From Halostagnicola larsenii XH-48 (GTDB lineage: Archaea > Halobacteriota > Halobacteria > Halobacteriales > Natrialbaceae), in the NCBI RefSeq assembly GCF_000517625.1, contig NZ_CP007055.1, forward strand, positions 2,604,001-2,668,000: a stretch of DNA of 64,000 bases, written 5' to 3'. The stretch's first letter is position 1; every line of letters starts with the position of its first letter. Positions 19,385 to 41,029 of this stretch are shown piece by piece. The notes beneath the pieces are model-generated. The model had not been told where the DNA came from. It was given only the letters and a program-made list of their open reading frames with translations, and made no database searches. A program made the translations under genes and the position numbers.

Positions 19385-20683
19385 ATGACGACGCTCGAGA
19401 TCACCGGCGGGGAGGTACTGCGTCCCGATACCACAGTCGAACGCGCCGACGTACTGGTCGATCAGGACGCGGGAACGATCCTCGAGATCGGATCCGACCT
19501 CGGCGGGACGGCCGACGAAACGCTCGACGCCACGGACTCGCTCGTGACGCCCGGGTTCGTCAACGGTCACACGCACGTCGCGATGGCGCTCCTTCGCGGG
19601 TACGCGGACGACAAACCGCTCGAGGCGTGGCTCCGGGAGGACATCTGGCCCGCGGAGGGAGCGATGACCCCGGAAGACATTCGCGCCGGCGCGGAACTGG
19701 GCATTCTCGAGATGATCAAGGGCGGGACGACGGCCTTTGCGGACATGTACTTCGAGGTCCCCGAAATCGTCGCTGCGGTCGAGAAATCTGGCGTTCGAGC
19801 CGTGCTCGGACACGGAATCGTCACCGTCGGCAAGGACGACGCGGCGGCACGCGAGGACGCCGCCGAAAGTCTCGCCGTTGCCGAAGAGTTCGACGGTGCC
19901 GCAGACGGCCGAATCTCGACGGTGTTCGCCCCGCACTCGCTGACGACCGTCGACTCGACGTACCTCGAGGAGTTCGTGCCGAAAGCGCGCGACGCGGGCG
20001 TTCCAGTTCACTACCACGCGAACGAGACCGAAGACGAAGTCGCGCCGATCGTCGACGAACACGGGGTGCGGCCCCTCGAGTACGCCGCCGAACACGGCTT
20101 GCTCGAGTCCGAAGACTTCGTCGCACACGGTGTCCACGTCGATGACCGGGAGATCGAACTGCTCGCCGAGGCCGGAACGAGCGTGATCCACTGTCCCGCC
20201 TCGAACATGAAACTGGCCAGCGGCATGGCACCGGTGCAGCGCCTGCTCGACGCGGGCGTCACCGTCGGCCTCGGCACGGACGGTGCGGCCTCGAACAACG
20301 ACCTCTCGATGCTCGACGAAGCCCGAGACGCGGCGATGCTCGGCAAACTCGCGGCCTCGGACGCGAGCGCCGTCGCCGCCGGCTCCGTCGTCGAGATGCT
20401 CACGGCGGGGAGCGCCGACGCGCTGGGTCTCGAGTCGGGGCGTATCGAACCCGGTGCTCCGGCCGATTTCGCGGTGATCGACCTCGAGAAGCCCCACCTC
20501 GTGCCGGCACACGACCTCGTGAGCCACCTGGCGTATGCTGCCCAAGCGGGCGACGTGCGACACACGATCTGTGACGGGGCGGTCCTCATGTCCGACCGCG
20601 AGGTACTGACGATCGACGAACCGCGGGTTATAGAGCGCGCGAGAGAACGAGCAGCCGCACTCTCGGATCGTCTCGAGGAGTAA
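19385..20683 (+). CDS. Amidohydrolase, S-adenosylhomocysteine/methylthioadenosine/5'-deoxyadenosine deaminase type
   Basis: A 432-residue metal-dependent TIM-barrel deaminase. Metal ligands are visible in GFVNGHTHVAMALLRGYADD, in VHYHANETEDEV and HGVHVDD, and in GLGTDGAASNNDLSM. This matches the MtaD/DadD group, which deaminates SAH, methylthioadenosine or 5'-deoxyadenosine. It fits with adenosylhomocysteinase at 37613-38896, both clearing by-products of SAM use. Exact substrate preference cannot be read from the sequence. Monocistronic. Confidence 0.92.
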   Translation: MTTLEITGGEVLRPDTTVERADVLVDQDAGTILEIGSDLGGTADETLDATDSLVTPGFVNGHTHVAMALLRGYADDKPLEAWLREDIWPAEGAMTPEDIRAGAELGILEMIKGGTTAFADMYFEVPEIVAAVEKSGVRAVLGHGIVTVGKDDAAAREDAAESLAVAEEFDGAADGRISTVFAPHSLTTVDSTYLEEFVPKARDAGVPVHYHANETEDEVAPIVDEHGVRPLEYAAEHGLLESEDFVAHGVHVDDREIELLAEAGTSVIHCPASNMKLASGMAPVQRLLDAGVTVGLGTDGAASNNDLSMLDEARDAAMLGKLAASDASAVAAGSVVEMLTAGSADALGLESGRIEPGAPADFAVIDLEKPHLVPAHDLVSHLAYAAQAGDVRHTICDGAVLMSDREVLTIDEPRVIERARERAAALSDRLEE

Positions 20684-20821
20684 GTCCAGCCGCGGGCTAT
20701 CGTCGAAACGACGAACACGCAGGTCATACGGGAAACGAACGCCTGAAATCGGTCGATAAACGCTCGGAACGCTTTTCGGACCGTTTGAACTGGCTGCAAT
20801 GGTATCGAACCGACACGAAGG

Positions 20822-20832
20822 TTTATTTAAAT
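20822..20832 (+). promoter_or_regulatory. TATA box upstream of the candidate RNA
   Basis: CGAAGGTTTATTTAAATTCG carries a good haloarchaeal TATA (TTTATTTAAA) with a purine-rich upstream element. Transcription would begin about 25 bases downstream near 20850, where the first predicted stem starts. No good protein gene begins there. Confidence 0.55.
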
Positions 20833-20849
20833 TCGCTGAATTGTTCAAG

Positions 20850-21058
20850 TGGGTGTGGATCAATGCAGGGCACTCGTAGGGACCTGCTCGACACACCACC
20901 TGACCGGCCGACGGAGATCGCCCAGATTGACCGGGCACAGCGTGTCAGAGGCACCGTCCTCCGTCGCCGGCAGCATCCATCGGTCGAGGACTTGCGTCCA
21001 AACGTCTCCCCGACAGGGAGGCGACGTTCTTGATCGAAGGAAAGAGTTACTCTTTCGG
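20850..21058 (+). ncRNA. Candidate structured non-coding RNA
   Basis: Between two convergent genes, a strong TATA box is followed by about 210 bases that fold by eye into four stems. (1) GGTGTG 20852-20857 with CACACC 20892-20897, inside it GCAGG 20865-20869 with CCTGC 20883-20887. (2) CCGGC-C-GACGGAG 20904-20916 with CTCCGTC-GCCGG 20959-20970. (3) ACGT-CTCCC near 21002-21010 with GGGAG-GCG-ACGT ending at 21027. (4) GAAAGAG with CTCTTTC, 21039-21055. An ATG frame from 20863 (56 codons, Arg-rich) has only about two-thirds G/C at third positions, low for this genome, and is basic. I could not match it to RNase P, SRP or tRNA. Confidence 0.45.
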
Positions 21059-21086: not shown

Positions 21087-23225
21087 CTAGGCCGTGACTT
21101 CCTCGAGTGAGATCGCAGCGGCGTCGGTCGGGGCCTCGAGACGCACGGCACACTGTTTAAAATTCGGCTCCTTCGACCGGGGATCGACGGCCGGAATCGT
21201 GAGATCGTTCACGTCCGGGTGATGGATCGGAAGCCAGACGACGCCGTCCGGAATCGCCTCGTCGACCTCGACCCGGGCGAGTATCGACGCTCGCCGGGAG
21301 GTGATGCGACCGTACCGTTCGTCGTCCGGCCCCTCGAGTTCGGCCGCCAGCGCGGCGGCGGTCCCGGCGCTGACCCGCGCCGTCGGCGGTTCGTCGTCGC
21401 GGGTTCGAACCCCGGTGTTGTACGCGCCCGGCCGGCGCGCGGTGGTCAGCGTCAGCGGATAGCTCTCGTCGGGGGGCTCCGGAAGCCCGACGCCCTCCCC
21501 GGCCGAGAACCGAGCGCGTCCGCTCGACGTCGGAAACGACCACCGGTCGCTCGCGGGTCCCTCGAGGCGCTCCGTTTCGGACGTCTCGCCCTGTTCGGTC
21601 GTCGGCCCATCGTAGTACCGGTACCCGCCGGCGTCCTCGCGCGTCGGTGCCGGCCAGCGAACCGCTCGCTCCTCCTCGAGCCGGTCGTAGCTGATTCCCG
21701 AACAGTCCGCGAGCGTCCCCGCGGTGAGTTCGGCGAACTCGTCGAAGATCGACGCCGGCTCCGGGGATCGCTCGAACAGTCCCGGCGCGAGACGCGTCGC
21801 CAGTTCGGCGATCAATTCGAGGTCGGTCTTGACGCCCGACGGCGTGTCCGTCGCCGCACGTACCCGCGAAACGGTTCGTTCCATGTTCATCGCCGTTCCC
21901 TCGGATTCGCCCCACGTCGTGGCCGGGAGCACGACGTCCGCGAACTCGACCGTCTCGCTGTGGAAGGCGTCCTGCACGACGAGGAACGTGTCCTCGAGCC
22001 GTCGGCGAACCCGCGTTGTATCCGGCATTCCGACGGCGGGATTGGTCGCGACGGCGTAGACGGCCTCGACCTCGTCCTCGACGGCCTCGAGGATACCGAC
22101 GGGGCCGGGGCCCGGATCGTCGGGCAGGGTTTCGACCGACACGCCCCACTCGTCGGCGACTTCGGCTCGGTGAGCCGGATCGCCGAAGTCCCGGTGACCG
22201 GGCCAGGTCCCTTTCGAGGAACAGACGCGGGTCCCCATCGAGTTCGCCTGCCCCGTCAACGAGAACGGCCCCGTTCCGGGCCCGAGGTTACCGGTCGACA
22301 GACAGAGGTCGATCAGGGCGGCCGCGGTCTGCGTCCCGTCGACGCTCTGGTTGACGCCCATCCCCCAGTACAGCAGGGTATCGCGCTCGAGTGCGTCCGC
22401 GAGTCGGTCGACGGTCTCGAGGGGGACGCCCGCCGCGTTCGCTGCCGGTTCGGCGTCGGGCAGTTGCGCTCGAAGGTCTTTGAACCCCGTCGTCGCGTCG
22501 GCGATAAAGGGCTCGTCGATTCGATCCGTCTCGACGAGGCGCGCGAGGACGGCTCGAGCCAGCTCGAGGTCCCCGCCGGGGTCGGGTGCGACGTGGGCGT
22601 CTGCGACCTCGGCCGTTTCGCTCTCGATCGGATCGACGACGAGCAGTTCGCAGCCGTCCTCGGCCGCGGACTGGCGGATCCAGCGGAACAACACCGGATG
22701 TGCGGCCGCCGGGTTCGCCCCCCAGACCAGGTGGGTTTCGGCCTCGGGAACGTCGTCGTAGGTCGGCGGCGGCGCGTCGCTCCCGAAGGCGTCGTAGTAG
22801 GCGGTAACCGCACTCGCCATACAGAGGGTCGTGTTCGCATCGTAGTAGCGCGTGCCCAAGCCGCCGCGGGCGAGTTTGCCGAGTGCGTAGGCCGCCTCGT
22901 TCGTCTGCTGGCCGCTTCCCAGCACTGCAACGTGATTCGAACCGCCGGCGTGGGCCGTTCCGAGTCCTTCGGCGGCGCGCTCGAGGGCGGTCTCCCAGGT
23001 CGTCGGAACGAGTTCGCCGTCTCGTCGGACGAGCGGGCGCGTGAGCCACTCGCCGTCGGGGTCGGCCGTCTCGCTGACGCCCCGTTGACAGGCGAGTCCC
23101 TGATTGACCGGGTGTGCGGCGTCGCCGCGAACGACGTCTAACCCGTAACCGGTTTCGACGGCTCGTTGTACGTGACCACAGCCGACTGCACATCGCATAC
23201 ACGTGGTAGGGACGTGCTCAGTCAC
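21087..23225 (-). CDS. nasA: Assimilatory nitrate reductase, molybdopterin subunit
   Basis: A 712-residue molybdopterin oxidoreductase that reduces nitrate to nitrite for assimilation. The N-terminal [4Fe-4S] ligands are C9, C12, C16 and C46 (TTCMRCAVGCG ... NQGLACQRG). The molybdopterin domains follow, including SLTGQANSMGTR and the C-terminal LPIHHPDVNDLTIPAVDP. No signal peptide, so it is cytoplasmic. Three in-frame GTG codons (23237, 23234, 23225) precede Cys9 and no ATG does. GTG 23225 is chosen because a GGTGGTG ribosome site lies a few bases upstream. Partner genes nirA and narK are far away in this window. Confidence 0.93.
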   Translation of the reverse strand: MTEHVPTTCMRCAVGCGHVQRAVETGYGLDVVRGDAAHPVNQGLACQRGVSETADPDGEWLTRPLVRRDGELVPTTWETALERAAEGLGTAHAGGSNHVAVLGSGQQTNEAAYALGKLARGGLGTRYYDANTTLCMASAVTAYYDAFGSDAPPPTYDDVPEAETHLVWGANPAAAHPVLFRWIRQSAAEDGCELLVVDPIESETAEVADAHVAPDPGGDLELARAVLARLVETDRIDEPFIADATTGFKDLRAQLPDAEPAANAAGVPLETVDRLADALERDTLLYWGMGVNQSVDGTQTAAALIDLCLSTGNLGPGTGPFSLTGQANSMGTRVCSSKGTWPGHRDFGDPAHRAEVADEWGVSVETLPDDPGPGPVGILEAVEDEVEAVYAVATNPAVGMPDTTRVRRRLEDTFLVVQDAFHSETVEFADVVLPATTWGESEGTAMNMERTVSRVRAATDTPSGVKTDLELIAELATRLAPGLFERSPEPASIFDEFAELTAGTLADCSGISYDRLEEERAVRWPAPTREDAGGYRYYDGPTTEQGETSETERLEGPASDRWSFPTSSGRARFSAGEGVGLPEPPDESYPLTLTTARRPGAYNTGVRTRDDEPPTARVSAGTAAALAAELEGPDDERYGRITSRRASILARVEVDEAIPDGVVWLPIHHPDVNDLTIPAVDPRSKEPNFKQCAVRLEAPTDAAAISLEEVTA

Positions 23226-23577
23226 GAACGACACCACCCTGCGTTCGATGAGCGAGTTCCAGTGGGTTTACAGACAGACCATAACCCTGGAGATTCGTCC
23301 AGAACCATTTCACAATTTCACAGAATTAGAGATAGTTTCCAGGTACTAAACCATAATCGTTTAGAAATACAAATTTTCTACGGACCTCGTGAGGATCTGA
23401 TCAATGTGAGAACGGATAAGGAGAATATAAGGACATATGCTCCGGTTGTGAGCGGCGAAATAACGGGAATCCAGCCAATGCAGTCGCCGGACAGTCAGTA
23501 GAGAGATGGGCAGAAGGTGACTCGAGGAATCACGAACGGGCTCGAAACGAGATGACAATAGCGGGTGCGTATTTCGG
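23226..23577. other. AT-rich intergenic region upstream of nasA
   Basis: About 350 bases of lower GC content between the nasA start and the TatC stop. It probably holds the nasA promoter. I found no copy of the CC-W6-GG palindrome seen upstream of nirA and narK. No credible gene: the plus-strand frame 23166-23501 overlaps the nasA start and has poor codon usage. Confidence 0.5.
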
Positions 23578-24480
23578 CTACTCGCGGCCGGTCCACTTCA
23601 CGATGAGGAGCGTTCCCTCGAACAGGAGGATCATCGTGATGGCCACGAAGATCGGAGCCATGAAGGTCGGATCCATCGTGAACATAAAGGAAAGCCCCGC
23701 GAAGGCCGTCCAGAAGTAGAGTCGCTTCTGTGCGAGCCACCGTCTGGTCGTCACGCCCAGCATGATCGCGAGCATGATAAACAGCGGAATCTGGAAGACG
23801 ATGGCGAGAAAGCCGGTCAACGTGATGACCAAGTTGAACGTCTCGCCGAGTGCGTAGGCGATCTCGGCGCTGCCCTCCGAATAGAACGTAAAGTACGAGA
23901 AGAGGATCGGCAGGACGACGATGTACGAGAAGATCATGCCAAGCCCGCCGAGAACGACGCTGGTCGGAACGGCGGCCAGGTAGTACTTGCGCTCGTTCGG
24001 ATACAGCCCCGGTCGCATGAACAGGTAACACTGATAGATCAACATCGGCAGCGCGATCATGATCCCCAACAGCGCGGAGAGTTTGATCCGGGTCAGCCAC
24101 AACTCGAGCGGACTGTACAGGTGCGGTGGTCGCTCTGTTGCCTGCGGAACGACATCGGACCAGATGAACGAGATCCCCTCCGACGCCCAGAGGATCCCGA
24201 TCGCGGTCCCCGCAGCGCCGAACAGAAAGACCACTGCGAGCCGAAGCACCATCTCCTCGATGTGATCCGCAAGCGGCATCTCCTCGTCGTCCGGCGGGGT
24301 CGAGATACCGCCGATATCGTCGTCGGGATCGGGATACTCCTCCTTGTGTTCTGAATTGTCACCGACGTATCCCTCGCCGTCGGTCTTCGCCTCGGGTTTC
24401 TCCTCCGTTGCGGTTGGCAGTGGCTCAGCGGAGCCACTCGTGGACGCAGCGTCCTCATCGCCAGCCGAGTCGTCCGGCAT
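23578..24480 (-). CDS. tatC: Tat translocase subunit TatC (single-domain)
   Basis: A 300-residue TatC. About 75 acidic, low-complexity residues lead into the TatC domain (EMPLADHIEEMVLRLAVV, then about six membrane helices; SPLELWLTRIKLSALLG and RPGLYPNERKYY are typical). TatC binds twin-arginine signals and is central in haloarchaea, which send much of their secretome through Tat. This matches the TatCo form. It is divergent from the double TatC at 24654, a pairing known in haloarchaea. Confidence 0.95.
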   Translation of the reverse strand: MPDDSAGDEDAASTSGSAEPLPTATEEKPEAKTDGEGYVGDNSEHKEEYPDPDDDIGGISTPPDDEEMPLADHIEEMVLRLAVVFLFGAAGTAIGILWASEGISFIWSDVVPQATERPPHLYSPLELWLTRIKLSALLGIMIALPMLIYQCYLFMRPGLYPNERKYYLAAVPTSVVLGGLGMIFSYIVVLPILFSYFTFYSEGSAEIAYALGETFNLVITLTGFLAIVFQIPLFIMLAIMLGVTTRRWLAQKRLYFWTAFAGLSFMFTMDPTFMAPIFVAITMILLFEGTLLIVKWTGRE

Positions 24481-24653
24481 CTATGGTGACATAGATCCGC
24501 CACTGGTTATAGGCCTTTTTCTTACGAGCATGCGCTGACAGCGAACCGGGTTGCACTCGAGAACGACGAGAGGAATAACACGCGTTTGGCTGTCGCTGTA
24601 AACTTCTGTACTCGAAAGGTTGATAACTGGATGCAAGTTAGCCACTGACAGCA

Positions 24654-26990
24654 ATGAGTTCTGCGGTCAGCGAAGACACCGCCCGAGCCATCAACACCGG
24701 TAGGGAGACGATCGGTGCCGTCCTCTCCAGTGCACAGGACAACCTCCAGCATGTGTTTATCGTCTTTCTCCTCGGCTTCGTCGGGGCCTTCTACGCGCTT
24801 CGAGTCTTCATCTGGGATTTCCTCGAGGCCACGGCTCGAGCGGAGATGAACGCGAACCTCTCCGAGGCGACGAACATCATCACCCGAACGCCGTTCGAAG
24901 TGATCCTCCTGCAGGCGAAAATCGGGATGATAATCGGCGTCATCGTCGCGATTCCGGCGGTTCTGTATTACTCTCGAGACGCGCTTCGAAAGCGCGGGCT
25001 CCGGTCGGTCGTTCCCGTCTCGCGGTGGTACATGGCAGGGTTAGCGCTGATCTCGTTCATGTTGTTCTGGCTGGGACTGGCCTACGCGTTCGTAGTGTTC
25101 TTCCCGTTTACGTTCGAGTTCCTCGCGAAGGTCGCCTTCGTCGCGGGCGTCGATCCGAGCTGGGGGATCACGGAATTCACGCAGTTTATGGCGCTGCTGA
25201 CGATCTCGTTCGGACTCGCGGCCCAGTTGCCGCTCATGATGGGCGTCCTTTCGTATACCGAGATCGTCTCCTACGAAACGTTCCGAAACAAGTGGCGTCA
25301 TGCCATCGTCGCCATCACCGTCTTCGGTGCGGTTTTCTCGCCGCCGGATCCGATCACGCAGGTCATGTGGGCGCTCCCGCTGTGTGGACTGTACGCCTTC
25401 AGCCTCGGCCTCGCGAAGATCGTCGCCAACATCCGCCGGCGCGGCGCCGCCGAACTCGATACCGGAACCGGGTTCATGAAACGACGAGTGCTCCAGTTTA
25501 CGGGCGTTTTGCTCGGCACTGGCGCGCTGACTGCCGCCTTCGTGAACCAAGACGGCTTCGACCGCCTCGAGGAATCGGTCTTTCCGCTGCTTCCGTCGGG
25601 ACTCGAACCCGGTGGTACCACCGTTCTCGAGTCGATCGCGATCGAGTACGGGACACTCGGCGACGTCGCGGTCGGCTTGCTGGTCGCCCTCGGCGTCGGC
25701 GTCGTGATTCTCGTGGGCTACATGATCGCCGTCTTGCGATCCCCCGTGTATCCGCGAGAGGGAGACCTTCGAAACGCGACCGACCCCGACGAGATCGACT
25801 TCCAGACCCTCGAGACCGGGGACATCGAGAACGTGCCTGCGCAGGTCTTCCTCGCGATGAACGAAGAGCAAGCGCTCGAGATCTCCCGCCAGGCGATGTA
25901 CGACGACAACAAGGCGAAAGCCGAAACGGTTCTGAGCCGATTCGACTCGTTGCAGGCCCAGCAGAACGCAGACGGCGATACGACCGACGAGGGAGCAGAC
26001 GCCGGGGCGAGCGCGGACACGGCCGGCGAAGGCGGGGAGCCTGAAGACGACGGCGGACTCGTCTCGAGTACGGCGGCGGGGATGCTGGATCCGTTCACCG
26101 AGGACGAGACGACCGAGGAGGATATCGGCGGCTACGCCTACGACCTCGCGTTTATCTTCAACAGCCTCACCTCGAAGGCGATTTACATCGTCGGGCTGTT
26201 CATGCTCGTTCTGGGTGGGTCGTTCTTCGCGCTGTATCAGGGCGGGTTCACGGTGATCCTCGCACAGTTCGTCGACCGCGTTCCCGACGACGTCCTACAG
26301 GAAGTCGCAGCGGCAAACGACGCCCAGGTAGCGGGCGCCGAATCGACGACACAGTTGCTCCGCGAAGCCGGCTTCGTCATCGCGCTCGACCCCGTCGAGG
26401 TGCTGATCTTCATGATCAAGATCAGCACGATTCTGGCGTTCCTCGCGGTCCTCCCGCTGGTGCTTTACTGGGCCTGGCCGGCCGCCAAGGAACGCGGACT
26501 CGTCAGCGGGAACTCCCGCGTGATACTCGTCTGGAGCGGGCTCTTGCTGGTCGGGTTCGTCGTCGGGCTCTTCCTCGGGTTCTACTGGATCGCGCCCGCG
26601 GTGATCTCCTATCTCATCACCGACGCCGTCAACAACGGCATGGAAGTCACCTACCGGATCAACAGCTTCTCCTGGCTCGTGATCTACGCGACGCTCGGCG
26701 TCGGCTTCCTCTTTAACATCATCGTCACGATGGCGATGTTCCACGTCGGCGGCATCGTCAACTACCGGACGATGCTCGAGCGGTGGCGGTCGGTCGTCGT
26801 CGGCATCTTCGTGATCGCGGCTGTCGCGAGTCCGAAAGGCATCCTGACGATGCTCGCGCTCGCGACGCCGATCGCGCTCACCTACGTCCTCGGACTCGGC
26901 GTGTTGTACGTTCTCACCGGCGGCGGGCGACTGTTCGGCGGTGGCGGCGGCGGGCAAACCGACTCCGACGCCGCGGCAGTTCCCGAGTGA
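24654..26990 (+). CDS. tatC2: Fused double TatC (TatCt)
   Basis: A 778-residue membrane protein made of two TatC domains in one chain, the TatCt form peculiar to haloarchaea with about 14 membrane segments. First domain about 35-250, then extra helices; an acidic linker about 430-500 (DGDTTDEGADAGASADTAGEGG) separates it from the second domain (about 510-760). Tandem TatC residues such as FEVILLQAKIGMIIGVIVAIP and VEVLIFMIKISTILAFLAVLP mark the equivalent position in each half. The C-terminus is Gly-rich. Divergent from single-domain tatC with about 170 bases between. Confidence 0.95.
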   Translation: MSSAVSEDTARAINTGRETIGAVLSSAQDNLQHVFIVFLLGFVGAFYALRVFIWDFLEATARAEMNANLSEATNIITRTPFEVILLQAKIGMIIGVIVAIPAVLYYSRDALRKRGLRSVVPVSRWYMAGLALISFMLFWLGLAYAFVVFFPFTFEFLAKVAFVAGVDPSWGITEFTQFMALLTISFGLAAQLPLMMGVLSYTEIVSYETFRNKWRHAIVAITVFGAVFSPPDPITQVMWALPLCGLYAFSLGLAKIVANIRRRGAAELDTGTGFMKRRVLQFTGVLLGTGALTAAFVNQDGFDRLEESVFPLLPSGLEPGGTTVLESIAIEYGTLGDVAVGLLVALGVGVVILVGYMIAVLRSPVYPREGDLRNATDPDEIDFQTLETGDIENVPAQVFLAMNEEQALEISRQAMYDDNKAKAETVLSRFDSLQAQQNADGDTTDEGADAGASADTAGEGGEPEDDGGLVSSTAAGMLDPFTEDETTEEDIGGYAYDLAFIFNSLTSKAIYIVGLFMLVLGGSFFALYQGGFTVILAQFVDRVPDDVLQEVAAANDAQVAGAESTTQLLREAGFVIALDPVEVLIFMIKISTILAFLAVLPLVLYWAWPAAKERGLVSGNSRVILVWSGLLLVGFVVGLFLGFYWIAPAVISYLITDAVNNGMEVTYRINSFSWLVIYATLGVGFLFNIIVTMAMFHVGGIVNYRTMLERWRSVVVGIFVIAAVASPKGILTMLALATPIALTYVLGLGVLYVLTGGGRLFGGGGGGQTDSDAAAVPE

Positions 26991-27086
26991 ACGGCATCGA
27001 AGGAGCAGTCAGGCGCTCGAGCCGAAGTTTCGAACGCAAGAGAGTAGCTATCAACTGTTAAGGAACACCTCTTCGAACCCACAGCC

Positions 27087-27263
27087 ATGCCCAAAATCAG
27101 CGTCGAAATCCCGCAGGAACTACTCGACGACCTCGATGCACACGTCGGTGACGACGGCAAATTCGTCAATCGAAGCGACGCCATCCGCTCGTCGATCCGC
27201 AAAAACCTCGATATTCTCGACGAAATCGACGATCGACACGACCGACTCGAGCCCGACGAGTGA
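27087..27263 (+). CDS. Small ribbon-helix-helix DNA-binding protein
   Basis: A 58-residue protein (MPKISVEIPQELLDDLDAHV...). The beta strand KISVEIP and the two helices with NRSDAIRSSIRKNL (28-41) give the ribbon-helix-helix (CopG/NikR N-terminal) pattern of small dimeric regulators. The tail is acidic. It lies about 95 bases after double tatC on the same strand. No toxin gene follows (the next gene is convergent), so it is more likely an orphan regulator. Target unknown. Confidence 0.85.
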   Translation: MPKISVEIPQELLDDLDAHVGDDGKFVNRSDAIRSSIRKNLDILDEIDDRHDRLEPDE

Positions 27264-27319
27264 GAGACGAGCGGAAACGAGAGATTTCGAGCGGCGGCGA
27301 TTCGATGTCACGATGACGC

Positions 27320-28096
27320 TCAGTCGCGATCTAGCCGCTTTGCGAAGCCGAAGTTCGGTTTGACATCGTCGACCCGGACCGTCACCGTCTCGCCTTCTTC
27401 GGTGTCCGGAACGAACAGCCGATAGCCGTCGACCGAGGCGATCCCGTCCCCCTCTGTGCCGACATCGACGATGTCGACCTCGAGTTCGTCGCCCGTCTGG
27501 ATCGGCGCGGTGAGCCGCCCCTTGCCGATAAGATAGATTTCCGACGACGCATCGCGGGACGCTTTCGGGCTCGTCGCGCGGACGTACTGGAATTCGTCTT
27601 CGACATCTGATCGGAACGCGTCGACGTCGGGCCCTTCGAACACCTTCACGATGAAGTCGCCGCCGGTCTCGAGCAGTTCCAGCGACGTCTCGAACGCCTG
27701 CCGAGCGAGGTGAAGGGATCGCGCCTGATCGAGGTGGTACTCGCCGGTCATGTTCGGTGCCATGTCCGAAACGACGACATCGACGTCGCCGCCTGCCGTA
27801 TCGGTAACTCGCTCGCGCGTTCGATCCTCGGTCATGTCCCCGCGAACCGTCTCGACGGTGTCGTGATCCTCGAGCGGTTTGATTCGCTGGAGGTCGACGC
27901 CGATGACGGTTCCCTGCGGGCCGACGCGTTCGGCCGCGACCTGCAGCCAGCCGCCCGGCGCGGCCCCGAGGTCGACGACCGTGTCTCCCCCGTGGATGAC
28001 GTTCTCGAGGTCTGCGAGCTGTTTGAGCTTGTAGGCCGCTCGAGATCGATAGCCCTCCTGCTTTGATTTGTTGTAGTAGTGGTCTTTGCCAGTCAT
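27320..28096 (-). CDS. rlmE: 23S rRNA 2'-O-methyltransferase RlmE (FtsJ) with TRAM domain
   Basis: A 258-residue SAM-dependent methylase acting on the 23S rRNA A-loop uridine. The FtsJ domain holds the SAM motif DLGAAPGGWLQ (42-52) and the catalytic K-D-K-E set Lys23, Asp111 (SDMAPN), Lys151 (IVKVFEG) and Glu186. Residues about 195-258 form a TRAM domain (GDELEVDIVDVGTEGDGIA), an archaeal extension that likely binds RNA. The ATG at 28096 has GGTGAG seven bases upstream, which decides this start. Divergent from pcn. Confidence 0.95.
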   Translation of the reverse strand: MTGKDHYYNKSKQEGYRSRAAYKLKQLADLENVIHGGDTVVDLGAAPGGWLQVAAERVGPQGTVIGVDLQRIKPLEDHDTVETVRGDMTEDRTRERVTDTAGGDVDVVVSDMAPNMTGEYHLDQARSLHLARQAFETSLELLETGGDFIVKVFEGPDVDAFRSDVEDEFQYVRATSPKASRDASSEIYLIGKGRLTAPIQTGDELEVDIVDVGTEGDGIASVDGYRLFVPDTEEGETVTVRVDDVKPNFGFAKRLDRD

Positions 28097-28331
28097 GGAT
28101 AGCTCACCAGAGACGGATCCGGTTTCCCGCGGCCGTCGGTTCGATCGGCCACGCGAGCGGAACGCGTCGGATGTGTACTCCCACCGAAGGCGTCGACGCT
28201 GATAGGCGTGACGCACCTGTCGTCCCCGCTGTTGCCACTCGGGTGAGCGATCCGAACGCCGATGAGCGCCGACCGGAGGCGACGCCGATCGGCAGCCACC
28301 ACCAGCGGCTCCGATCGACCGCAAAAGGTGG

Positions 28332-28340
28332 CTTTTTATG
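28332..28340 (+). promoter_or_regulatory. TATA box of the PCNA gene
   Basis: CTTTTTATG at 28332-28340 lies 25-33 bases before the pcn ATG (28365), so the transcript should be leaderless or nearly so. No ribosome-binding site is visible before the ATG, which agrees. Confidence 0.6.
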
Positions 28341-28364
28341 CAGACCGTTCGTAGCCCGTCACAT

Positions 28365-29108
28365 ATGTTCAAGGCCATCGTGAGCGCGGAAACGCTCACC
28401 AGCACGCTCGATTCGATCAGCGTGCTGGTCGACGAGTGCAAGATTCACCTCGAGGAAGAAGGCCTCGAGATTCGGGCCGTCGATCCCGCCAACGTCGGGA
28501 TGGTCGACCTCTCGCTCGATGCAGCCGCGTTCGAATCCTACGAAGCCGACGGCGGACTGATCGGCGTCGACCTCTCGCGGCTCGAGGACATCGCCGGCAT
28601 GGCCGAATCCGGCCAGCTCATCCAGTTTGAACTCGACGAAGAGACGCGCAAGCTTCACATCCAGATCGACGGGCTCGAGTACACGCTCGCGCTCATCGAT
28701 CCCGACTCGATCCGACAGGAGCCGGACATTCCGGATCTCGACCTGCCGGCCGAAGTCGTCCTCGAGGGCAAAGACCTCAACCGATCGGTCAAAGCCGCCG
28801 ATATGGTCTCGGACCACATCGCACTCGGCGTCGACGAAAGCGAGGAGTTCTTCTACGTTAACGCGGAGGGAGACACCGACGACGTCCATCTCGAGTTGAC
28901 TCGAGACGACCTGATCGACCTGCAGGTCGGTCCGGCACGCTCGCTGTTCTCGCTCGATTATTTGAAGGACATGAACAAGGCGATTCCCGCAGATACCGAA
29001 GTGACGCTCGCACTCGGCGAAGAGTTCCCGATCAAGATGTTCTTCGGCTACGGCGACGGAAACGGGCAGGTCACGTACATGCTCGCGCCGCGGATCCAGA
29101 GCGACTGA
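28365..29108 (+). CDS. pcn: DNA polymerase sliding clamp (PCNA)
   Basis: A 247-residue PCNA, the trimeric ring that tethers polymerases and other factors to DNA. The start [11 protein letters not shown], the [20 protein letters not shown] loop and the C-terminal [20 protein letters not shown] are standard. Strongly acidic, as expected in a halophile. An in-frame ATG at 28338 is ignored, since it overlaps the TATA box. It works with RFC (RfcC at 11156) and primase (PriL at 30671), also in this window. Confidence 0.97.
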
Positions 29109-29143
29109 GGACTCGGTTTTTCTACGACGCTCCTCGAGCGGGG

Positions 29144-29247
29144 CTTTTCCGAAAGCGCGGTTGCTGGGAAACAGCCGTTTTGCCAAGCGACTCCCGTCCC
29201 TAACTGTTGCCAAGCGACCCCCGCTCTCGACTGAGCTTTCGGAAAAG
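29144..29247. repeat. 13-bp inverted repeat enclosing a short direct repeat
   Basis: CTTTTCCGAAAGC at 29144-29156 and its exact complement GCTTTCGGAAAAG at 29235-29247 enclose 78 bases. Within them TTGCCAAGCGAC occurs twice in near-tandem (about 29181 and 29208). The block lies between pcn and the HalOD1-like gene. It could be a small non-autonomous mobile element or a structured transcript end. Confidence 0.6.
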
Positions 29248-29310
29248 TGGTATGTACGCAGCGACGACGAAAAGGGGAGGAGTTACCACCGAGAAGCCAC
29301 TAGAACGGGT

Positions 29311-29601
29311 ATGGTCTCTCCCGACGATTCTGCAGGCTCTCCGTCGAGTCACGTCGTCACTGTCGACGGACGACAGCCGAGCGAAGCCATCATCTCCGCG
29401 ATAGCGACCCTCTCGGGAACGGACGCGGCATCGTTACCGCCGCTATACGACGTCATCGACCCCGAAGCGCTCGACTCGCTGTACGAACACGTTCGAGAGC
29501 GCAACGGCGGAGACTCGAGCGCCTACCAAATCGTGTTCCCCTACGAGGGATACGAAGTGTGCGTCGAGTTCGACGGTCGGATTCGACTCGAGACGAGTTA
29601 G
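29311..29601 (+). CDS. HalOD1-like output-domain protein
   Basis: A 96-residue protein starting MVSPDDSAGS. After a polar start, SEAIISAIATLSGTDAASLPPLYDVIDPEALDSL (about 27-60) and the closing VCVEFDGRIRLE match the HalOD1 domain, a stand-alone putative output module common in haloarchaea. The biochemical role is unknown. The ATG at 29311 is preferred because the longer frame upstream runs through the inverted repeat. Confidence 0.78.
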   Translation: MVSPDDSAGSPSSHVVTVDGRQPSEAIISAIATLSGTDAASLPPLYDVIDPEALDSLYEHVRERNGGDSSAYQIVFPYEGYEVCVEFDGRIRLETS

Positions 29602-29634
29602 GTCGTTCCGACATCGGCTGATCGCACTGCACTT

Positions 29635-30525
29635 CTACACCGGCCGACTGGCCTCCACTCGTTCGCGGAGGAACGTTCGAAGGTGATCGTTCACCTCGTC
29701 GCTCGATTCGATGAAAACGCAGTGTGAGCCACCCTCGATGGTCTCGAGAGTCGCGTCCGGAATTTTCTTCTCGAGCAGGCGGGCGTTTTCGACGGGGATC
29801 ACTCGATCGGCAGTGCCGTGCAGGACGAGCGTCGGCACCCGGATGCGATCGAGTCGATCCGCGACGTCGAAGTCGAGTACCGCACCGGCCTGGGCCTCGC
29901 GAGCGGGTCCGTCGGCGTCCTGCTCGAGTCGCCACTCGATGATCCGGTCCATGAGATGCGGGTTTCGATTGGTAAAGCGCTCGGTGAACGCCGGGCGCAT
30001 CCGGTGGCGGAGTCGTTCCCGTTCGGTTGCGCCCTTTGGCGTTGAAAAGACCTGCTCTCGGGTTTCCTCGGGGATCGGAACTGCGTCCGGCCCGCCGTGG
30101 CTCGTACAACACAGCGTGAGCGAGGCCGCCCGCGAGTACTCGAGGGCGTACTGCTGGGCGATCATCCCGCCCATGCTCGCGCCGACGAGGTGGGCGTCGA
30201 AGATGCCGGCGTCCTCGAGGACGGCCTCGAGGTCCGCGGCCAACCCCTCGATGGAATAGCTGGCGAGGGTTGCGAGGAGGGGAGCGCGCAGTCGACGCGG
30301 GAGTTTCGAAACGCCCGGCGGGAGGCCGGCGTCCGATCGGCCGGTTCCTCGGTTGTCTGGCGCGATCACGTCGAACTCGCCGGCGAGGGCTTCCCGTTGC
30401 CAGCGCCACATCCACCGCCCGTAGCCGAGCCCCTGGACGAAGACGACCGGATCGCCGCTCGTCCCGTCTGCACGCTCGTCTCGCTCGTAGTAGATCGACA
30501 CCCCGTCTCGAGTGACCCGTGGCAT
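29635..30525 (-). CDS. Alpha/beta-fold hydrolase
   Basis: A 296-residue alpha/beta hydrolase. The oxyanion region QGLGYGRWMW, the nucleophile elbow GASMGGM (catalytic Ser), the acid in LHGTADRVIP and the late His in EGGSHCVF give a full catalytic triad. The closest types are small esterases or 3-oxoadipate enol-lactonase-like enzymes; the substrate cannot be told. The ATG at 30525 (MPRVTRDGVSIYYER) is chosen over the longer frame that enters priL. Divergent from priL. Confidence 0.9.
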   Translation of the reverse strand: MPRVTRDGVSIYYERDERADGTSGDPVVFVQGLGYGRWMWRWQREALAGEFDVIAPDNRGTGRSDAGLPPGVSKLPRRLRAPLLATLASYSIEGLAADLEAVLEDAGIFDAHLVGASMGGMIAQQYALEYSRAASLTLCCTSHGGPDAVPIPEETREQVFSTPKGATERERLRHRMRPAFTERFTNRNPHLMDRIIEWRLEQDADGPAREAQAGAVLDFDVADRLDRIRVPTLVLHGTADRVIPVENARLLEKKIPDATLETIEGGSHCVFIESSDEVNDHLRTFLRERVEASRPV

Positions 30526-30670
30526 ACGACAACCGACGTGGCGGACGGCCTTGAAATCGAGCATCGATGGGGCGACGAAACGGCAGATCTTACTGGATCG
30601 ATCGAACTCAGGGGCGAGCGAGCGCCGACAACCAGCGCGTTTAACCCCTCCCAGTAATATCGTTGTATCG

Positions 30671-31744
30671 ATGCAGCGACTGCACGCCCGATACCCCTTC
30701 CTCGAGGCAGCCCGCGACTCGGTCGCCACGGAGGCCGTCGATCTGGCCACCGTCGTCGAGCAAGACGGGGCGGTCGTCGAACGCGCCCGCGAGCGCGTCG
30801 TCGCCTCGCTTGAGAAGGGGACAACGGGCGAGGCTCACCGGGAACCGCGCGTGGAACTGCTTTCTTATCCCGTCGCTCGAGTGCTCGTTTCGCTCGGTAA
30901 CGAGTCGATACTCGTCCGCAAGTACGCCCGCGCCGAAGCCGAAACGGCCTTCGACCGGTTCACGGACGACCTCGAGGACACGACGGAGTTGAAAAGCGTC
31001 GAGACGGCGGGACTCGACCTCGCTGACCTTCTCTCGGAGTTCGACCTCGAGGAGTCGATCCGAGCGGTTGGCGATGGTGGGTATCGAGTGGACGTCGGGA
31101 CGTACCTACCCCTCGCGGGCGACCTCTGGGAGGACGAGTGGCGACTGGTCAACCAACCCCTCGACAACGGCGAGGTGCCGGTCGACGAGAGGGAGCTACT
31201 GACGCTCCTGCGCGAAGCCGTGCGCGAACGGATCGAAGACGGGCTTCCGTTCGACGTTCCAGACACGATCGCGACCGAACTCGAGGACGAAGCCGAAGAG
31301 ATCCGCGACGTACTCGCCGAACTGGACCTGACTCGAGAGATCGACACGGTCGTTCCGGACCTCTTCCCGCCGTGTATGAAGGCGCTGCTCGATCAGATCC
31401 AGAAGGGCGAACACCTACCCCATCACTCCCGGTTTGCGATCACGGCGTTTCTGGCGAGCATCGGGATGGAAACCGACGATATCGTCGACCTCTACCGGGT
31501 AAACTCCTCGTTCGGCGAGGAGATGACGCGGTACCAGACGGACCACATCCGCGGCGACACGTCGCCGACGGAGTACTCCCCGCCTTCGTGTGCGACGATG
31601 CAATCGTACGGTGACTGCGTGAACAAAGACGACCTCTGCGAGCAGATTCCACACCCGATGGCCTACTACGAGAACCGGATCGACGACGCCGACGACGACG
31701 AACTCGAGGACTGGCGGGAGACGACGGCCGAAGGCGACGCCTGA
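30671..31744 (+). CDS. priL: DNA primase large subunit PriL
   Basis: A 357-residue PriL, which with the catalytic PriS makes the RNA primers of replication. The N-terminal helical domain covers about 1-210. The C-terminal Fe-S domain has conserved Cys in FPPCMKALL, PPSCATMQSYGDC and DLCEQIPHPMAYY. Acidic throughout. Start at 30671 (MQRLHARYPFLEAARD) fits the family; the longer frame overlaps the divergent hydrolase. PriS is not in the window. Confidence 0.95.
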   Translation: MQRLHARYPFLEAARDSVATEAVDLATVVEQDGAVVERARERVVASLEKGTTGEAHREPRVELLSYPVARVLVSLGNESILVRKYARAEAETAFDRFTDDLEDTTELKSVETAGLDLADLLSEFDLEESIRAVGDGGYRVDVGTYLPLAGDLWEDEWRLVNQPLDNGEVPVDERELLTLLREAVRERIEDGLPFDVPDTIATELEDEAEEIRDVLAELDLTREIDTVVPDLFPPCMKALLDQIQKGEHLPHHSRFAITAFLASIGMETDDIVDLYRVNSSFGEEMTRYQTDHIRGDTSPTEYSPPSCATMQSYGDCVNKDDLCEQIPHPMAYYENRIDDADDDELEDWRETTAEGDA

Positions 31745-31786
31745 TCGGAAATCAATATCGTGACCACGGGAGAAAACGAGACTCGC

Positions 31787-32044
31787 TTACGCCGATCCCT
31801 GCGTGTCAACGTCGTTTTCGAGTCCATCCTCTGGATCGTTCAACGTGTAGGCCAGCACGACGCCGACGCCAGTGAGAAAGATCACGAACCCGACGATGGC
31901 CGCGACCAGCATCTGACCGCCGTCGGCGGACAGTTCGCCGTTGGATCCGGAGTACGTCGTCCCGATGTACACCATCGTCGAAACCATAAGAAGGACCGAG
32001 AGGATGGCCGCGCCGGTTTCGATAAGGCTGTCACGCTCGAGCAT
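31787..32044 (-). CDS. Small two-helix membrane protein
   Basis: An 85-residue protein starting MLERDSLIETGAAIL. Membrane segments span about 9-28 and 45-67; the tail is acidic (NDPEDGLENDVDTQ). A conserved haloarchaeal protein by appearance, possibly the DUF7472 type (uncertain recollection). Convergent with priL. Function unknown. Confidence 0.72.
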   Translation of the reverse strand: MLERDSLIETGAAILSVLLMVSTMVYIGTTYSGSNGELSADGGQMLVAAIVGFVIFLTGVGVVLAYTLNDPEDGLENDVDTQGSA

Positions 32045-32325
32045 TGGTCGATGCTTTCGACGGGCCGGTGAAAAACGTATCGAAGGCATCGTCCGCGAGA
32101 CGCCTCCTCGAGGCGGAGTGCGGCGCTCGAGGCCGCGCGAACTCGAGGGGGCGTACCGGACGAATTCAGGCGGCGGTCGGAAAGACGCGGGCGAACGCGA
32201 TGGCATCGAACGACCGGTCGATTCGGTCGATAATCGAGGGCTGGGTGTGCAGGCGCGGCCGTTATTATCCCCGAGCACGTATAAGCGTCGAATAGCCAGC
32301 CGACCGACTGCAGCCCTCGACGCAC

Positions 32326-32964
32326 ATGATAACAACCGCGTCACCGAAAACCAGCCTTCCAGTACCGACCGATAGACGACTCGAGGAGCGATCGCTTCGC
32401 GCGCGCACGGAGGCGATGTCCGTGCTCGCACTCGGCGACGGCCTCTACGAGGTCGAATCCGAGAGCGAACACACCTACCTCGTCGACCTCGAGGCGGGGC
32501 GGTGTACCTGTCCGGACCACGTCTTCCGGAACGTCCGCTGTAAGCACGTTCGCCGCGTCGCGATCGAGATTACGGCAGGACGGGTCCCGCCGCTCGGCCG
32601 GATCGCCGTCGAGTGTACCGACTGCGGCGAATCGGTCTTCGTCGACGAAGACGTAGACGGCCCGTTCTACTGCGAACGCCACCGGATCTATCCCGGCGCA
32701 ACGGTTCGCGACCGCGAGACGGGCGACCGACTGACGGTCGTCGACGTTTCGGATCGGAGAGCGGACGCCGTCCAGATTCCGGACGCGAGTACCACCGTCG
32801 CCGAGTACGGCACGAACGAGAACTACGACCCCGACGTCCCGGTCGTCGGAACCGTCTACCCCCACGCAACGGTGGCACGGAACGGCGTCGTTCCGGCGTC
32901 GCTGAAGGTCTACGTGTTCCCGCGAACGCGCCTCGAACGCGTGCGGACCGACGATCGGAACTGA
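32326..32964 (+). CDS. SWIM zinc-finger protein
   Basis: A 212-residue protein. The SWIM motif (CxCxnCxH) is CTCPDHVFRNVRCKH at about 59-73, preceded by the typical YEVESESEHTYLVDLEAG strand pair. A second Cys pair, ECTDCGE, and FYCERH near 96-119 may form another zinc site. SWIM domains bind DNA or proteins and are found beside helicases and recombination factors. A TATA-like GTATAAGC sits at about 32279-32286. Followed by the acyl-CoA dehydrogenase gene after 85 bases. Confidence 0.85.
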   Translation: MITTASPKTSLPVPTDRRLEERSLRARTEAMSVLALGDGLYEVESESEHTYLVDLEAGRCTCPDHVFRNVRCKHVRRVAIEITAGRVPPLGRIAVECTDCGESVFVDEDVDGPFYCERHRIYPGATVRDRETGDRLTVVDVSDRRADAVQIPDASTTVAEYGTNENYDPDVPVVGTVYPHATVARNGVVPASLKVYVFPRTRLERVRTDDRN

Positions 32965-33049
32965 TCTGCGAATGGATCCGCTCGAGACGGCGGGCAAGTC
33001 CACTCGAGACGCTGCCATTTTATTGCGGTTCGTCAACTATACTCACACT

Positions 33050-34951: not shown

Positions 34952-34989
34952 CGTGGAGACGAGTACCAGGACCGACGCGGACGACTACT

Positions 34990-35514
34990 CTACTCGAGCA
35001 ACGTCGCGGCTTCCTCGACGTCCATCACGCCCTGTTCGACCGCGTTGAGCACCCGGACGATTTCGGGGTCGGGGCCGGTGTCGACGCCGTCCTCGTCGAT
35101 GTCCTCGAGGGTGACCTTCTCGGATTCGCCGACGAACTCCGAGAAGTCGGTGCCCTCGGCGATGGCCGTCTCGCTTTTGACGCGGTAGTTGCCGCCGTCG
35201 GTGACGTGGAGGTCGCCGGGATGGAAAAAGTACCAGTCCTCGCGGTCGAACCTGACGCCGATACGGGGTTTCGCGCCGAAATTCTGTGCGAAGTACGTGA
35301 GCGCCTCGACCTCCTCGCCGGTGAGATAGATCGGGTCGCCTGAACTCGACTTGGCTTCGATCGCGTAGAAGGTTTCGCCGTCGCCGGCGAGTACGTCCGG
35401 CAGTTCCCGCTCCGTCGCCGAGCCGCTCGCCGGGGCGCGCATCACCGCAAAGCCCGCCTCGTCGAGGAGATTGACGAGTTCGCGCTCGCGGCGATCGCCT
35501 TTCGCCTGGGACAT
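34990..35514 (-). CDS. hjc: Holliday junction resolvase Hjc
   Basis: A 174-residue archaeal resolvase that cuts four-way junctions in recombination. The nuclease core carries [24 protein letters not shown], a catalytic Asp in ELPDVLAG, and the ExK pair in [10 protein letters not shown]. The C-terminal 60 residues (acidic, [15 protein letters not shown]) are a halophile extension. ATG at 35514 is chosen over GTG at 35523. It follows the CPBP protease gene on the same strand with about 60 bases between. Confidence 0.93.
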
Positions 35515-35576
35515 ATCACTCACTCACGTGCGGCCCCTCTTAAACGAGGCGACCCAGCGATCAACCCGATCGGCTG

Positions 35577-36377: not shown

Positions 36378-36443
36378 GAAAGGCCGTACATCGACGAGCC
36401 CCTTGGGCGTTCCTTTTGCAGAAGAGCGGTTGTGCAGGCCGCG

Positions 36444-36656: not shown

Positions 36657-36919
36657 TGTGGATCGTTCCCTACCCATATCTTGGAGTGATCGAAGATATA
36701 TGTTTTGATTATGTTCAGATAGTGCATACTAGTGCACGTTCGTAGTTGAATTTTCGGAAAAAGATTGCGTTTCGAGATTGAGTCGTGATAGTTGGTCGCG
36801 AATCGAACGACCGTCCGCAAGGAGCGGTGGGTCCGGGTGTTCTCAAGGGCGTCGATGAGTGAATACACCCGGTCGGAAACGCAGAGCCGTACGACATCCC
36901 GGTTGTGCGAATATCCGGA

Positions 36920-37612: not shown

Positions 37613-38896
37613 TTACGTCCCGTGGTCCCACGAACCCATGTACTCGCGCTGGGTGTCGGTCAGGGAGTCGAAATCGACGCCTTCGGCCTCGAGTTTGATT
37701 TCGGCGATCTCTTTGTCCAGTTCGTCGGGGACGTCGTGGACGCCGGCGTCGTATTCGTCGGCGTTCTCGAGCATCTCCCGCACGCAGACGGCCTGCACAC
37801 CGAAGCTCTGGTCCATTACTTCGACGGGATGGCCGAGCGAGACGGGAGCCGCGAGGTTGACCAGCCGACCTTCCGCGATCACGTTCAATCGGCGTCCGTC
37901 GTCCATCTCGTAGGCTTCGACGCCGTCGCGGGCCTCGTAGCGGTCGACCGCGAGGTCGTCGAGCGCGTCGAGGTCGATCTCGATGTCGAAGTGACCCGCG
38001 TTCGCCAGCAGGACGCCGTCTTTCATCGATTCGAAGTGCTCACGGACGACCACGTCGCGGTTGCCCGTCGTCGTCAGGAACACGTCGCCGACCTCGGCGG
38101 CCTCGGCCATCGGCATGACCTCGTAGCCTTCCATGTGAGCCTCGAGCGCTCGGCGCGGTTCGACTTCGGTGACGATGACGTTCGCGTTCTGGCCGGCGGC
38201 CTTCTTCGCGACGCCCTTGCCGCAGTAGCCGTAGCCCGCGATGACGACGTTCTTGCCGGCCCACGAGAGGTTCGTGGTCATGGCGATGGAGGCCAGCGAG
38301 GATTCGCCGGTGCCGTGAACGTTGTCGAACAGCCGTTTCATCGGCGTGTCGTTGACCGCAAAGACCGGGTACTCGAGCGCGCCGTCTTCGTCCATCGCGC
38401 GCAGGCGGTGGACGCCGGTGGTGGTTTCCTCGCAACCGCCGGCGATGCTATCGATCAGTTCGGGGTAGTCCTCGTGGATCGCGGCCACGAGGTCCATCCC
38501 GTCGTCGACGGTGACGGTCGGCTCGAGGTCGATGACGGCTTCGATCGCCTCGTAGTACTCCTCGTCGTCGACGCCGCGTTTCGCGTAGCTCGTGATGTTC
38601 TCGTGGGTGTCGAGCGCCGCGGAAACGTCGTCGTGGGTCGAGAGGGGATTACAGCCCGTGACCGCGACCTCGGCGCCGCCGTCGGCGAGCGTTTCGACCA
38701 GGATCGCCGTCTTGGCCTCGACGTGCATTGCCATCGCGATCCGCTCGCCCTCGAAAGGCTGGTCGGCGTCGAACTCGTCGCCGACGGCCGACATGATCGG
38801 CATGTGCTGGGCGGCCCAGTCCATCTTTCGGCGACCCTCTTCTCGAGCCGCCTCGAGATCGTCTAGCTGCTCGCTGATCGGCGGGTACGGTGTCAT
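37613..38896 (-). CDS. ahcY: Adenosylhomocysteinase
   Basis: A 427-residue NAD-dependent enzyme that splits S-adenosylhomocysteine to adenosine and homocysteine, relieving inhibition of methylases. The substrate region VTGCNPLSTHDDVSAAL and EETTTGVHRL, the NAD fold NVVIAGYGYCGKGVAKK, and LTTTGNRDVV are standard. The archaeal type ends SLTDTQREYMGSWDHGT. ATG at 38896 (MTPYPPISEQLDDLE) is chosen; the longer frame is atypical. Works in the same pathway as the deaminase at 19385. Confidence 0.96.
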   Translation of the reverse strand: MTPYPPISEQLDDLEAAREEGRRKMDWAAQHMPIMSAVGDEFDADQPFEGERIAMAMHVEAKTAILVETLADGGAEVAVTGCNPLSTHDDVSAALDTHENITSYAKRGVDDEEYYEAIEAVIDLEPTVTVDDGMDLVAAIHEDYPELIDSIAGGCEETTTGVHRLRAMDEDGALEYPVFAVNDTPMKRLFDNVHGTGESSLASIAMTTNLSWAGKNVVIAGYGYCGKGVAKKAAGQNANVIVTEVEPRRALEAHMEGYEVMPMAEAAEVGDVFLTTTGNRDVVVREHFESMKDGVLLANAGHFDIEIDLDALDDLAVDRYEARDGVEAYEMDDGRRLNVIAEGRLVNLAAPVSLGHPVEVMDQSFGVQAVCVREMLENADEYDAGVHDVPDELDKEIAEIKLEAEGVDFDSLTDTQREYMGSWDHGT

Positions 38897-39142: not shown

Positions 39143-39160
39143 CCATTTGTAAACGGTTAC

Positions 39161-39170: not shown

Positions 39171-39204
39171 TTCACCAGCATGACTAACATCCGTACATTG
39201 AGCA

Positions 39205-39279
39205 ATGATCCAATTGAAATCTGACGATTTAGAAGACGACCGTCCAATCCGACTCGGGGTGAACTGCGATGGTTCATAA
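39205..39279 (+). CDS. 24-codon leader ORF overlapping the nirA start
   Basis: ATG at 39205 opens a 24-residue acidic peptide (MIQLKSDDLEDDRPIRLGVN...) whose TAA at 39277-39279 lies inside nirA, overlapping its ATG at 39269 in another frame. It begins just after the predicted transcript start. The GGGGTGA ribosome site of nirA lies within it. Either a translated leader that couples or regulates nirA, or chance. Confidence 0.35.
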   Translation: MIQLKSDDLEDDRPIRLGVNCDGS

Positions 39280-41029
39280 AAAAGAGGAGTACAAGGAGGA
39301 GTGCTACGGAGACGAAGTCCGCGAGCACATCCTCGAGTTCGCCGACGAAGGCTTCGAGTCGATTCCGGAAGACGAGCGCGATAAGTGGTTCACCCGGTTC
39401 AAGTTCTGGGGGCTGTTCCATCAGCGCGACGGTCAGGAATCGTACTTCATGATGCGCCTGACGAATGCGAGCGGCGTCCTCGAGCCAGGTCAGCTCCGCG
39501 CGATCGGCGAGGTCGCCCGCGACTACGCGACCGGCCCCGTCGAAAACCCGGAGTTCGGAAACGGCTTTCTCGACCTGACGACCCGACAGTCGGTCCAACT
39601 TCACTGGCTCGACCTAGAGGAGGTTCCCGACGTCTGGGAACACCTCGAGTCGGCGGGCGTCTCGAGTCGATCCGCCGGCGGCGACACGATGCGAAACATC
39701 TCCGGCGGCGCGCTCGCCGGCAAGATCGACGAGTACGTCGACTCGCTGGCGCTGCTCGAGGAGTTTCAGGAAAAGTGTCGCGGAGACGACGCGCTGTCGA
39801 ACATGCCCCGGAAGTTCAACATCAGTGCGACGGGGTCGAAAGACGGCAGCGCGCAGGATTCGCTCAACGACATCGGCTTCGAGGCGGCTCGCAAGGAGAT
39901 CGATGGCGAGGTCGTCAAGGGGTTCAACGTCCGCGTCGGCGGCGGCCTCGGCGGTCGCCAACCCCGTGCGGCGACGCCCCTCGACATCTTCGTCACGCCG
40001 GAGAACGCCTACGAGGTCGGCCGCGGCTTCGTCGAACTCTACCACGACTACGGCAACCGGACGACGCGGGCGAAGAACCGCGCGCGCTTTTTCGTCGAGG
40101 ACTGGGGCGAGGAGAAGATCCGCGAGACGCTCCAGGAGGAGTACGTCGACTTCGAACTGAAAACCGCCGGCGAGGACTTCCGCGAAGAGTACACGTACAA
40201 CGCCGGTCGACCGTCCGGAGACGGGCCCCGCGACTACGTCGGCGTCGGCGATCAAATCGACGGGAAGAACTACGTCGGACTGACCGTCCCCGTCGGACGG
40301 CTCCCCGCGGAAGACGCGATCGCCATCGCCGACCTGGCCGACGAGTACGGCTCCGGCGAAATTCGACTCACCCGCCGGCAGAACTGCATCATCACGGACG
40401 TTCCCGACGAGAAACTCGAGGACCTCCTCGAGGAACCGCTGCTCGCGACGTACCCGCCGGAGCCGAGCGTCTTCGACCGCGGCGCGATGGCCTGTACCGG
40501 CACCGAGTTCTGTTCGATCGCGCTGACCGAGACGAAAGCGCGGATGGCCAAGATGCTGCGCTGGCTCAACGCCAACGTCGAACTCCCCGACGACGTCGAA
40601 CAGATTCGCATGCATTACTCGGGCTGTACGGCCGACTGCGGGCAGGCGATGACGGCGGACATCGGCCTGCAGGGCATGCGCGCCCGAAAGAACGGCGAAA
40701 TGGTCGAAGCGTTCGACATCGGCGTCGGCGGCGGCGTCGGCGAAAACCCCTCGTTCGTCGAGTGGATCCAACAGCGCGTGCCGGCCGACGAGGCACCGAT
40801 GGCGATCAAACGGCTGCTCGAGGCCTTCGCGGCCCACCGCGAGGAGGGACAGACGTTCCGCCAGTGGGTCGAAGCGACCGGCACCGAAGCGCTCGTCGAG
40901 TTCTGCGAACCCGCCGAATCGGACTTCGAAGCCCCGTACATGGACGACGGTAAACAGGCGTGGTACCCGTTCGCAAAAGACGTTGCTGACTCGGGAAGCG
41001 AGAGCTCCGCCGCGCCGTCGGACGACTGA
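39269..41029 (+). CDS. nirA: Ferredoxin-dependent nitrite reductase
   Basis: A 586-residue siroheme/[4Fe-4S] enzyme that reduces nitrite to ammonium with ferredoxin. Cluster and siroheme ligands are Cys409, Cys415 (CTGTEFC), Cys453 and Cys457 (SGCTADC). The two ferrodoxin-reductase-like halves carry the LTTRQSVQLHW and IRLTRRQNCIITDV motifs. Start at 39269 is decided by GGGGTGA seven bases upstream. It uses nitrite from NasA (21087-23225); uptake is by NarK (59022-60341). Followed one base later by a small ORF. Confidence 0.95.
   Translation: MVHKKEEYKEECYGDEVREHILEFADEGFESIPEDERDKWFTRFKFWGLFHQRDGQESYFMMRLTNASGVLEPGQLRAIGEVARDYATGPVENPEFGNGFLDLTTRQSVQLHWLDLEEVPDVWEHLESAGVSSRSAGGDTMRNISGGALAGKIDEYVDSLALLEEFQEKCRGDDALSNMPRKFNISATGSKDGSAQDSLNDIGFEAARKEIDGEVVKGFNVRVGGGLGGRQPRAATPLDIFVTPENAYEVGRGFVELYHDYGNRTTRAKNRARFFVEDWGEEKIRETLQEEYVDFELKTAGEDFREEYTYNAGRPSGDGPRDYVGVGDQIDGKNYVGLTVPVGRLPAEDAIAIADLADEYGSGEIRLTRRQNCIITDVPDEKLEDLLEEPLLATYPPEPSVFDRGAMACTGTEFCSIALTETKARMAKMLRWLNANVELPDDVEQIRMHYSGCTADCGQAMTADIGLQGMRARKNGEMVEAFDIGVGGGVGENPSFVEWIQQRVPADEAPMAIKRLLEAFAAHREEGQTFRQWVEATGTEALVEFCEPAESDFEAPYMDDGKQAWYPFAKDVADSGSESSAAPSDD

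Follow-up and report, generated by a model that had tools for sequence, protein, structure and literature searches.

A conserved, predicted RNA element behind the promoter of a lost protein gene in Halostagnicola, with a core sequence that recurs across the haloarchaea

In salt-loving archaea of the genus Halostagnicola, we find that a conserved, folded RNA element sits directly behind the promoter of a secreted-protein gene that has itself been lost, and that the loop core of this element, CAGAGGCAC, recurs in mostly intergenic positions across the class Halobacteria, without a known family or function. The locus was studied in a 64,000-nucleotide stretch of Halostagnicola larsenii XH-48, family Natrialbaceae (contig NZ_CP007055.1, positions 2,604,001 to 2,668,000, hereafter the window), where it lies between an mtaD-type deaminase gene and a convergent molybdopterin oxidoreductase gene (Table 1). 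Our best reading, held with moderate confidence, is a stand-alone noncoding RNA gene in which the ancestral promoter now transcribes the element directly, and in which a two-part stem with a bulge holds a loop that presents the core to a shared partner, such that the RNA probably acts in trans; transcription, the transcript ends and the trans mode are inferred. The homology of promoter and element, the absence of the open-reading frame, the covariation and the recurrence of the core rest on comparison. It is very probably a real structured RNA.

Table 1. Features of the locus and its neighbours, in window coordinates
Position	Strand	Feature	Basis
19385..20683	+	mtaD-type 5'-methylthioadenosine/S-adenosylhomocysteine deaminase gene, upstream neighbour and synteny anchor	ORF; Amidohydro_1; orthologue in all 41 family genomes tested
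20750..20841	+	ancestral promoter region of the lost secreted-protein gene (ATAAACGCTC upstream block to TATA to TGAAT)	promoter profile from other genera; alignment
20820..20832	+	TATA box (TATA-like GGTTTATTTAAAT); predicted start of transcription near 20850, inferred from usual archaeal spacing	sequence; nearly invariant in four species
about 20850..20973	+	conserved structured part	
20852..20897	+	5' hairpin, GGUGUG/CACACC (20852-20857 with 20892-20897) with inner GCAGG/CCUGC (20865-20869 with 20883-20887); Halostagnicola only	helices paired in all four species, two inner pairs with changes on both sides
20863..21033	+	56-codon ATG frame	ORF in the window species
20900..20973	+	conserved RNA element: P1 CCGGC/GCCGG (20904-20908/20966-20970), bulged C20909, P2 GACGGAG/CUCCGUC (20910-20916/20959-20965), outer CUG/CAG	independent covariance model; covariation
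20920..20936	+	small Halostagnicola-specific hairpin GCCC/GGGC inside the element's 5' linker	two double compensatory changes in G004
20943..20955	+	recurrent loop motif UGUCAGAGGCACC; core CAGAGGCAC at 20946-20954	invariant in four species; conserved at the same place in other genera; class-wide recurrence
21001..21028	+	3' hairpin AACGUC..GACGUU/UCCC..GGGA, possible 3' end region	seen in three of four species; weak
21040..21056	+	terminal hairpin GAAAGAG-UUA-CUCUUUC	not conserved in relatives
21087..23237	-	convergent molybdopterin oxidoreductase gene (NasA-like), downstream neighbour	ORF; Pfam Molybdopterin
37613..38896	-	ahcY (S-adenosylhomocysteine hydrolase); directly follows the element in other genera, here inverted and about 17 kb away	gene order compared with other genera
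39269..41029		nitrite/sulfite reductase-like gene	

The first-pass annotation had proposed a stand-alone structured RNA behind a TATA box, with four stems and a single Arg-rich ATG frame, and this interpretation is supported: the TATA box, the 12-bp stem with one bulged C, the further hairpins and the frame are all present as described, although its fourth stem, the terminal hairpin, is not conserved. What could not be seen from the sequence alone is that the RNA is the 3'-flanking element of a gene lost in this genus, that the promoter is that gene's promoter and that the loop sequence is a class-wide recurrent motif. The 214-nt fold is stronger than dinucleotide shuffles (z -3.46, 1 of 200 as low), yet a 131-nt core alone is only modestly better (z -1.64), so folding energy alone is weak evidence and comparison carries the case. 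No tRNA or tmRNA was detected with the ARAGORN model, and no Rfam 15 family matched in the window, in 16 motif loci, or at E<=0.5 in six loci; the only match at permissive thresholds was a chance Pistol match (E 4.8) on the other strand. A cis-regulatory 5' leader or riboswitch does not fit, as the next gene in the window lies on the opposite strand. A guide RNA of the H/ACA or C/D class is very unlikely: haloarchaeal guides can be divergent (PMC2584109), but by inspection we saw no conserved ANA box after the P1 3' arm in 25 loci and no conserved RUGAUGA box in the aligned elements, and complementarity of the core to 23S or the 3' part of 16S rRNA did not exceed chance.

A blastn search found the locus in three further species, which we refer to as G002 (81% identity), G001 (80%) and G004 (71%), always in the same intergenic region, and not in genome G003; two contigs with the orthologous locus carry the public titles Halostagnicola sp. 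A56 and sp. A-GB9-2. The alignment keeps the TATA region and the block GUGUCAGAGGCACCGNC-NUCCGUCG, whilst the start codon of the 56-codon frame is absent and the frame is shifted by 1-nt indels in G001, G002 and G004, and a small Arg-rich protein is thereby refuted. The predicted structure is kept in 96.5% of cells, with five pairs changed on both sides, whilst slid structures drop to 35-51%. The locus might alternatively be a non-functional remnant of the lost gene, conserved only because the species are close: there are only four sequences in the genus, and identity to G004 in the element is no higher than at fourfold-degenerate sites (54-67% against 61-63%), so conservation within the genus is good but not decisive on its own. 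We consider this reading unlikely, as the flanking noncoding sequence is 18-57% identical whilst the element is 54-88% identical, the retained parts are exactly those conserved across the family, and the core is invariant in all four species.

In other Natrialbaceae, mtaD is followed by a secreted-protein gene and then ahcY. This secreted gene (for example at positions 281-1084 of L098, one of the syntenic loci) is fast-evolving, has a GPPDHAGP-like tail and no Pfam family, and has an unusually well conserved promoter (AAACGCTC..ATAAACGCTC..GGGTTTATT). By tblastn it is found in 31 of the other loci and in none of the five Halostagnicola genomes. The upstream regions align with that of the window, and a profile of 21 such promoters from other genera, excluding Halostagnicola, gave a single significant hit in the window (E 2.5e-10), with weaker hits at the orthologous place in G001 (6.8e-5), G004 (0.009) and G002 (0.036). 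Scans for sigma-70 promoters and T-runs found nothing, though these are not suited to archaeal promoters. In the window, the NasA-like and nitrite/sulfite reductase-like genes (21087-41029 overall) flank the tatC and ahcY segment, which appears inverted relative to other genera.

The 3' end of this ancestral unit is likewise retained. A first covariance model gave only chance-level hits outside the genus genome-wide, but one weak hit, in genome G014, lay at the syntenic place just after the stop codon of the secreted gene, and led to the family-wide element. Of 26 loci with both mtaD and ahcY, 17 carried the loop motif within two mismatches of the 13-mer UGUCAGAGGCACG, here within a bulged P1-bulge-P2 stem with the core on the 3' side of the loop. 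A simple duplex-energy test of the flanks (9 of 25 at p<0.05) was uninformative because long flanks pair by chance, and was replaced by a stem test tied to the motif, in which optimised stems beat optimised shuffles at p<=0.05 in 21 of 25 loci. In an alignment of 16 genera, 88.4% of cells pair and ten of 16 pairs changed on both sides (26 cells), with 0 of 500 shuffles reaching the covariation score; the stems were chosen to pair, so the percentage leans upward, and the optimised-null test and the double changes are the safer evidence. A covariance model from these 16 genera, with no Halostagnicola sequence, recovered the window element as the best hit in 64 kb (E 4.6e-5), together with the loci of G001 (6e-7) and G002 (1.5e-6), whilst G004 scored only 0.034 and its P1 is poor; these E-values are rough. 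Both ends of an ancestral transcription unit thus persist in Halostagnicola whilst its coding part is gone. A DNA-level site, protein-binding or cruciform, would be compatible with the motif occurring in either orientation relative to genes, but is unlikely, as the stems covary, G-U pairs are more frequent than A-C mismatches on this strand (11 against 4), and the model scores the + strand well above the - strand (31.8 against 16.2 bits).

The core recurs, as UGUCAGAGGCACG, in 100 of 125 family genomes and 179 of 391 class genomes, whilst the same pattern read backwards is almost absent. Of 150 distinct instances, 131 are intergenic by a simple gene call, and stems directly flanking the motif are about three and a half times as frequent as at control positions 45 nt away (35 of 131 against 20 of 262 at p<=0.05). 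Exact ATGTCAGAGGCACG at gene starts (MSEAR...) is coding coincidence. Besides mtaD/ahcY, the instances fall into further syntenic groups, where gene and genus names are our reading of the translations. Between gltB and proS in most Natrialbaceae, the RNA strand is antisense to both genes and the motif runs into a conserved hairpin (UGUCAGAGGCACGUAGUG-UCAC...GUGA-ACACCAC); one such locus, L148 (positions 1501-1545, C1:2346046, +), is a second member of the motif set in the window's own genome. A further copy lies between an nre-like gene and the Zn-ribbon/EF-1beta genes, followed by a GGCC...GGCC-closed hairpin with a conserved GGGCA. In Haloarcula-like genomes the motif is found beside regulator genes and in the loop of a CCUGGN...UCCAGG stem 65 nt after cofH, between convergent cofH and cofG, and in some it is present in two copies on opposite strands of the same short region, possibly a paired arrangement. 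A search of 2.9 million viral contigs gave 75 exact 14-mer hits. The sequence was not found in an RNA context in the literature searched, and a hit for the reverse complement was an unrelated PCR oligonucleotide.

Because the core is far better conserved than the stems around it and recurs in unrelated RNA contexts, we think it is the working part, a docking or pairing site for a partner common to these RNAs; a shared RNA-binding protein and a shared mRNA target both fit. A cis role is not excluded: in other genera the element starts a few tens of bases after the secreted gene's stop, and about half of the intergenic copies (62) follow a same-strand gene, at a median of 80 nt after the stop codon. 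The element could then be a processing, stability or termination signal of the secreted-protein mRNA, and in Halostagnicola a relic behind a leftover promoter or the end of a short useless transcript. We regard this as the less likely explanation, as element, TATA box and core are kept in four Halostagnicola species whilst the flanks decay, the gltB/proS copies lie antisense to both neighbours, and no U-tract terminator was found. More tentatively, there may be a class-wide, unrecognised set of haloarchaeal RNAs, with several loci per genome in many genera and each with its own scaffold, sharing an invariant single-stranded core read by one common partner. Few archaeal regulatory RNAs are conserved beyond a genus, which has made their functions hard to approach; a motif found across about half of the sampled Halobacteria genomes, at syntenic places such as mtaD/ahcY, gltB/proS and the EF-1beta region, gives a handle for finding the partner in genetically tractable haloarchaea. 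The Halostagnicola case is a natural experiment, in which the protein gene is gone and the RNA remains, which argues that the RNA is worth keeping on its own.

Amongst known systems, archaeal H/ACA guide RNAs share a stem with an internal loop in a euryarchaeal intergenic RNA, but differ in the ACA box, Rfam match and rRNA complementarity of the core that we did not find here. Haloferax intergenic sRNAs, such as the ribosome-associated s194 (PMC6104027) and sRNA132 (PMC6560208), are likewise short intergenic haloarchaeal RNAs with their own promoters and regulatory roles; they are not described as sharing this motif in the text consulted, and most haloarchaeal sRNAs are reported as poorly conserved (PMC5852579), unlike this one. 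Sibling sRNA families, for example bacterial sRNAs that appear to share anti-Shine-Dalgarno loops, similarly display one invariant loop sequence on several unrelated RNA bodies in one genome, whereas CAGAGGCAC is archaeal, is not an anti-Shine-Dalgarno and has no known target. In 3'-UTR-derived regulatory sRNAs, which seem to be known mainly from enterobacteria, an RNA element at the 3' end of an mRNA can likewise become an independent RNA with its own promoter; here, however, there is no sequence relation, the upstream open-reading frame itself is lost, its own promoter is inferred to drive the element, and the core is shared class-wide.
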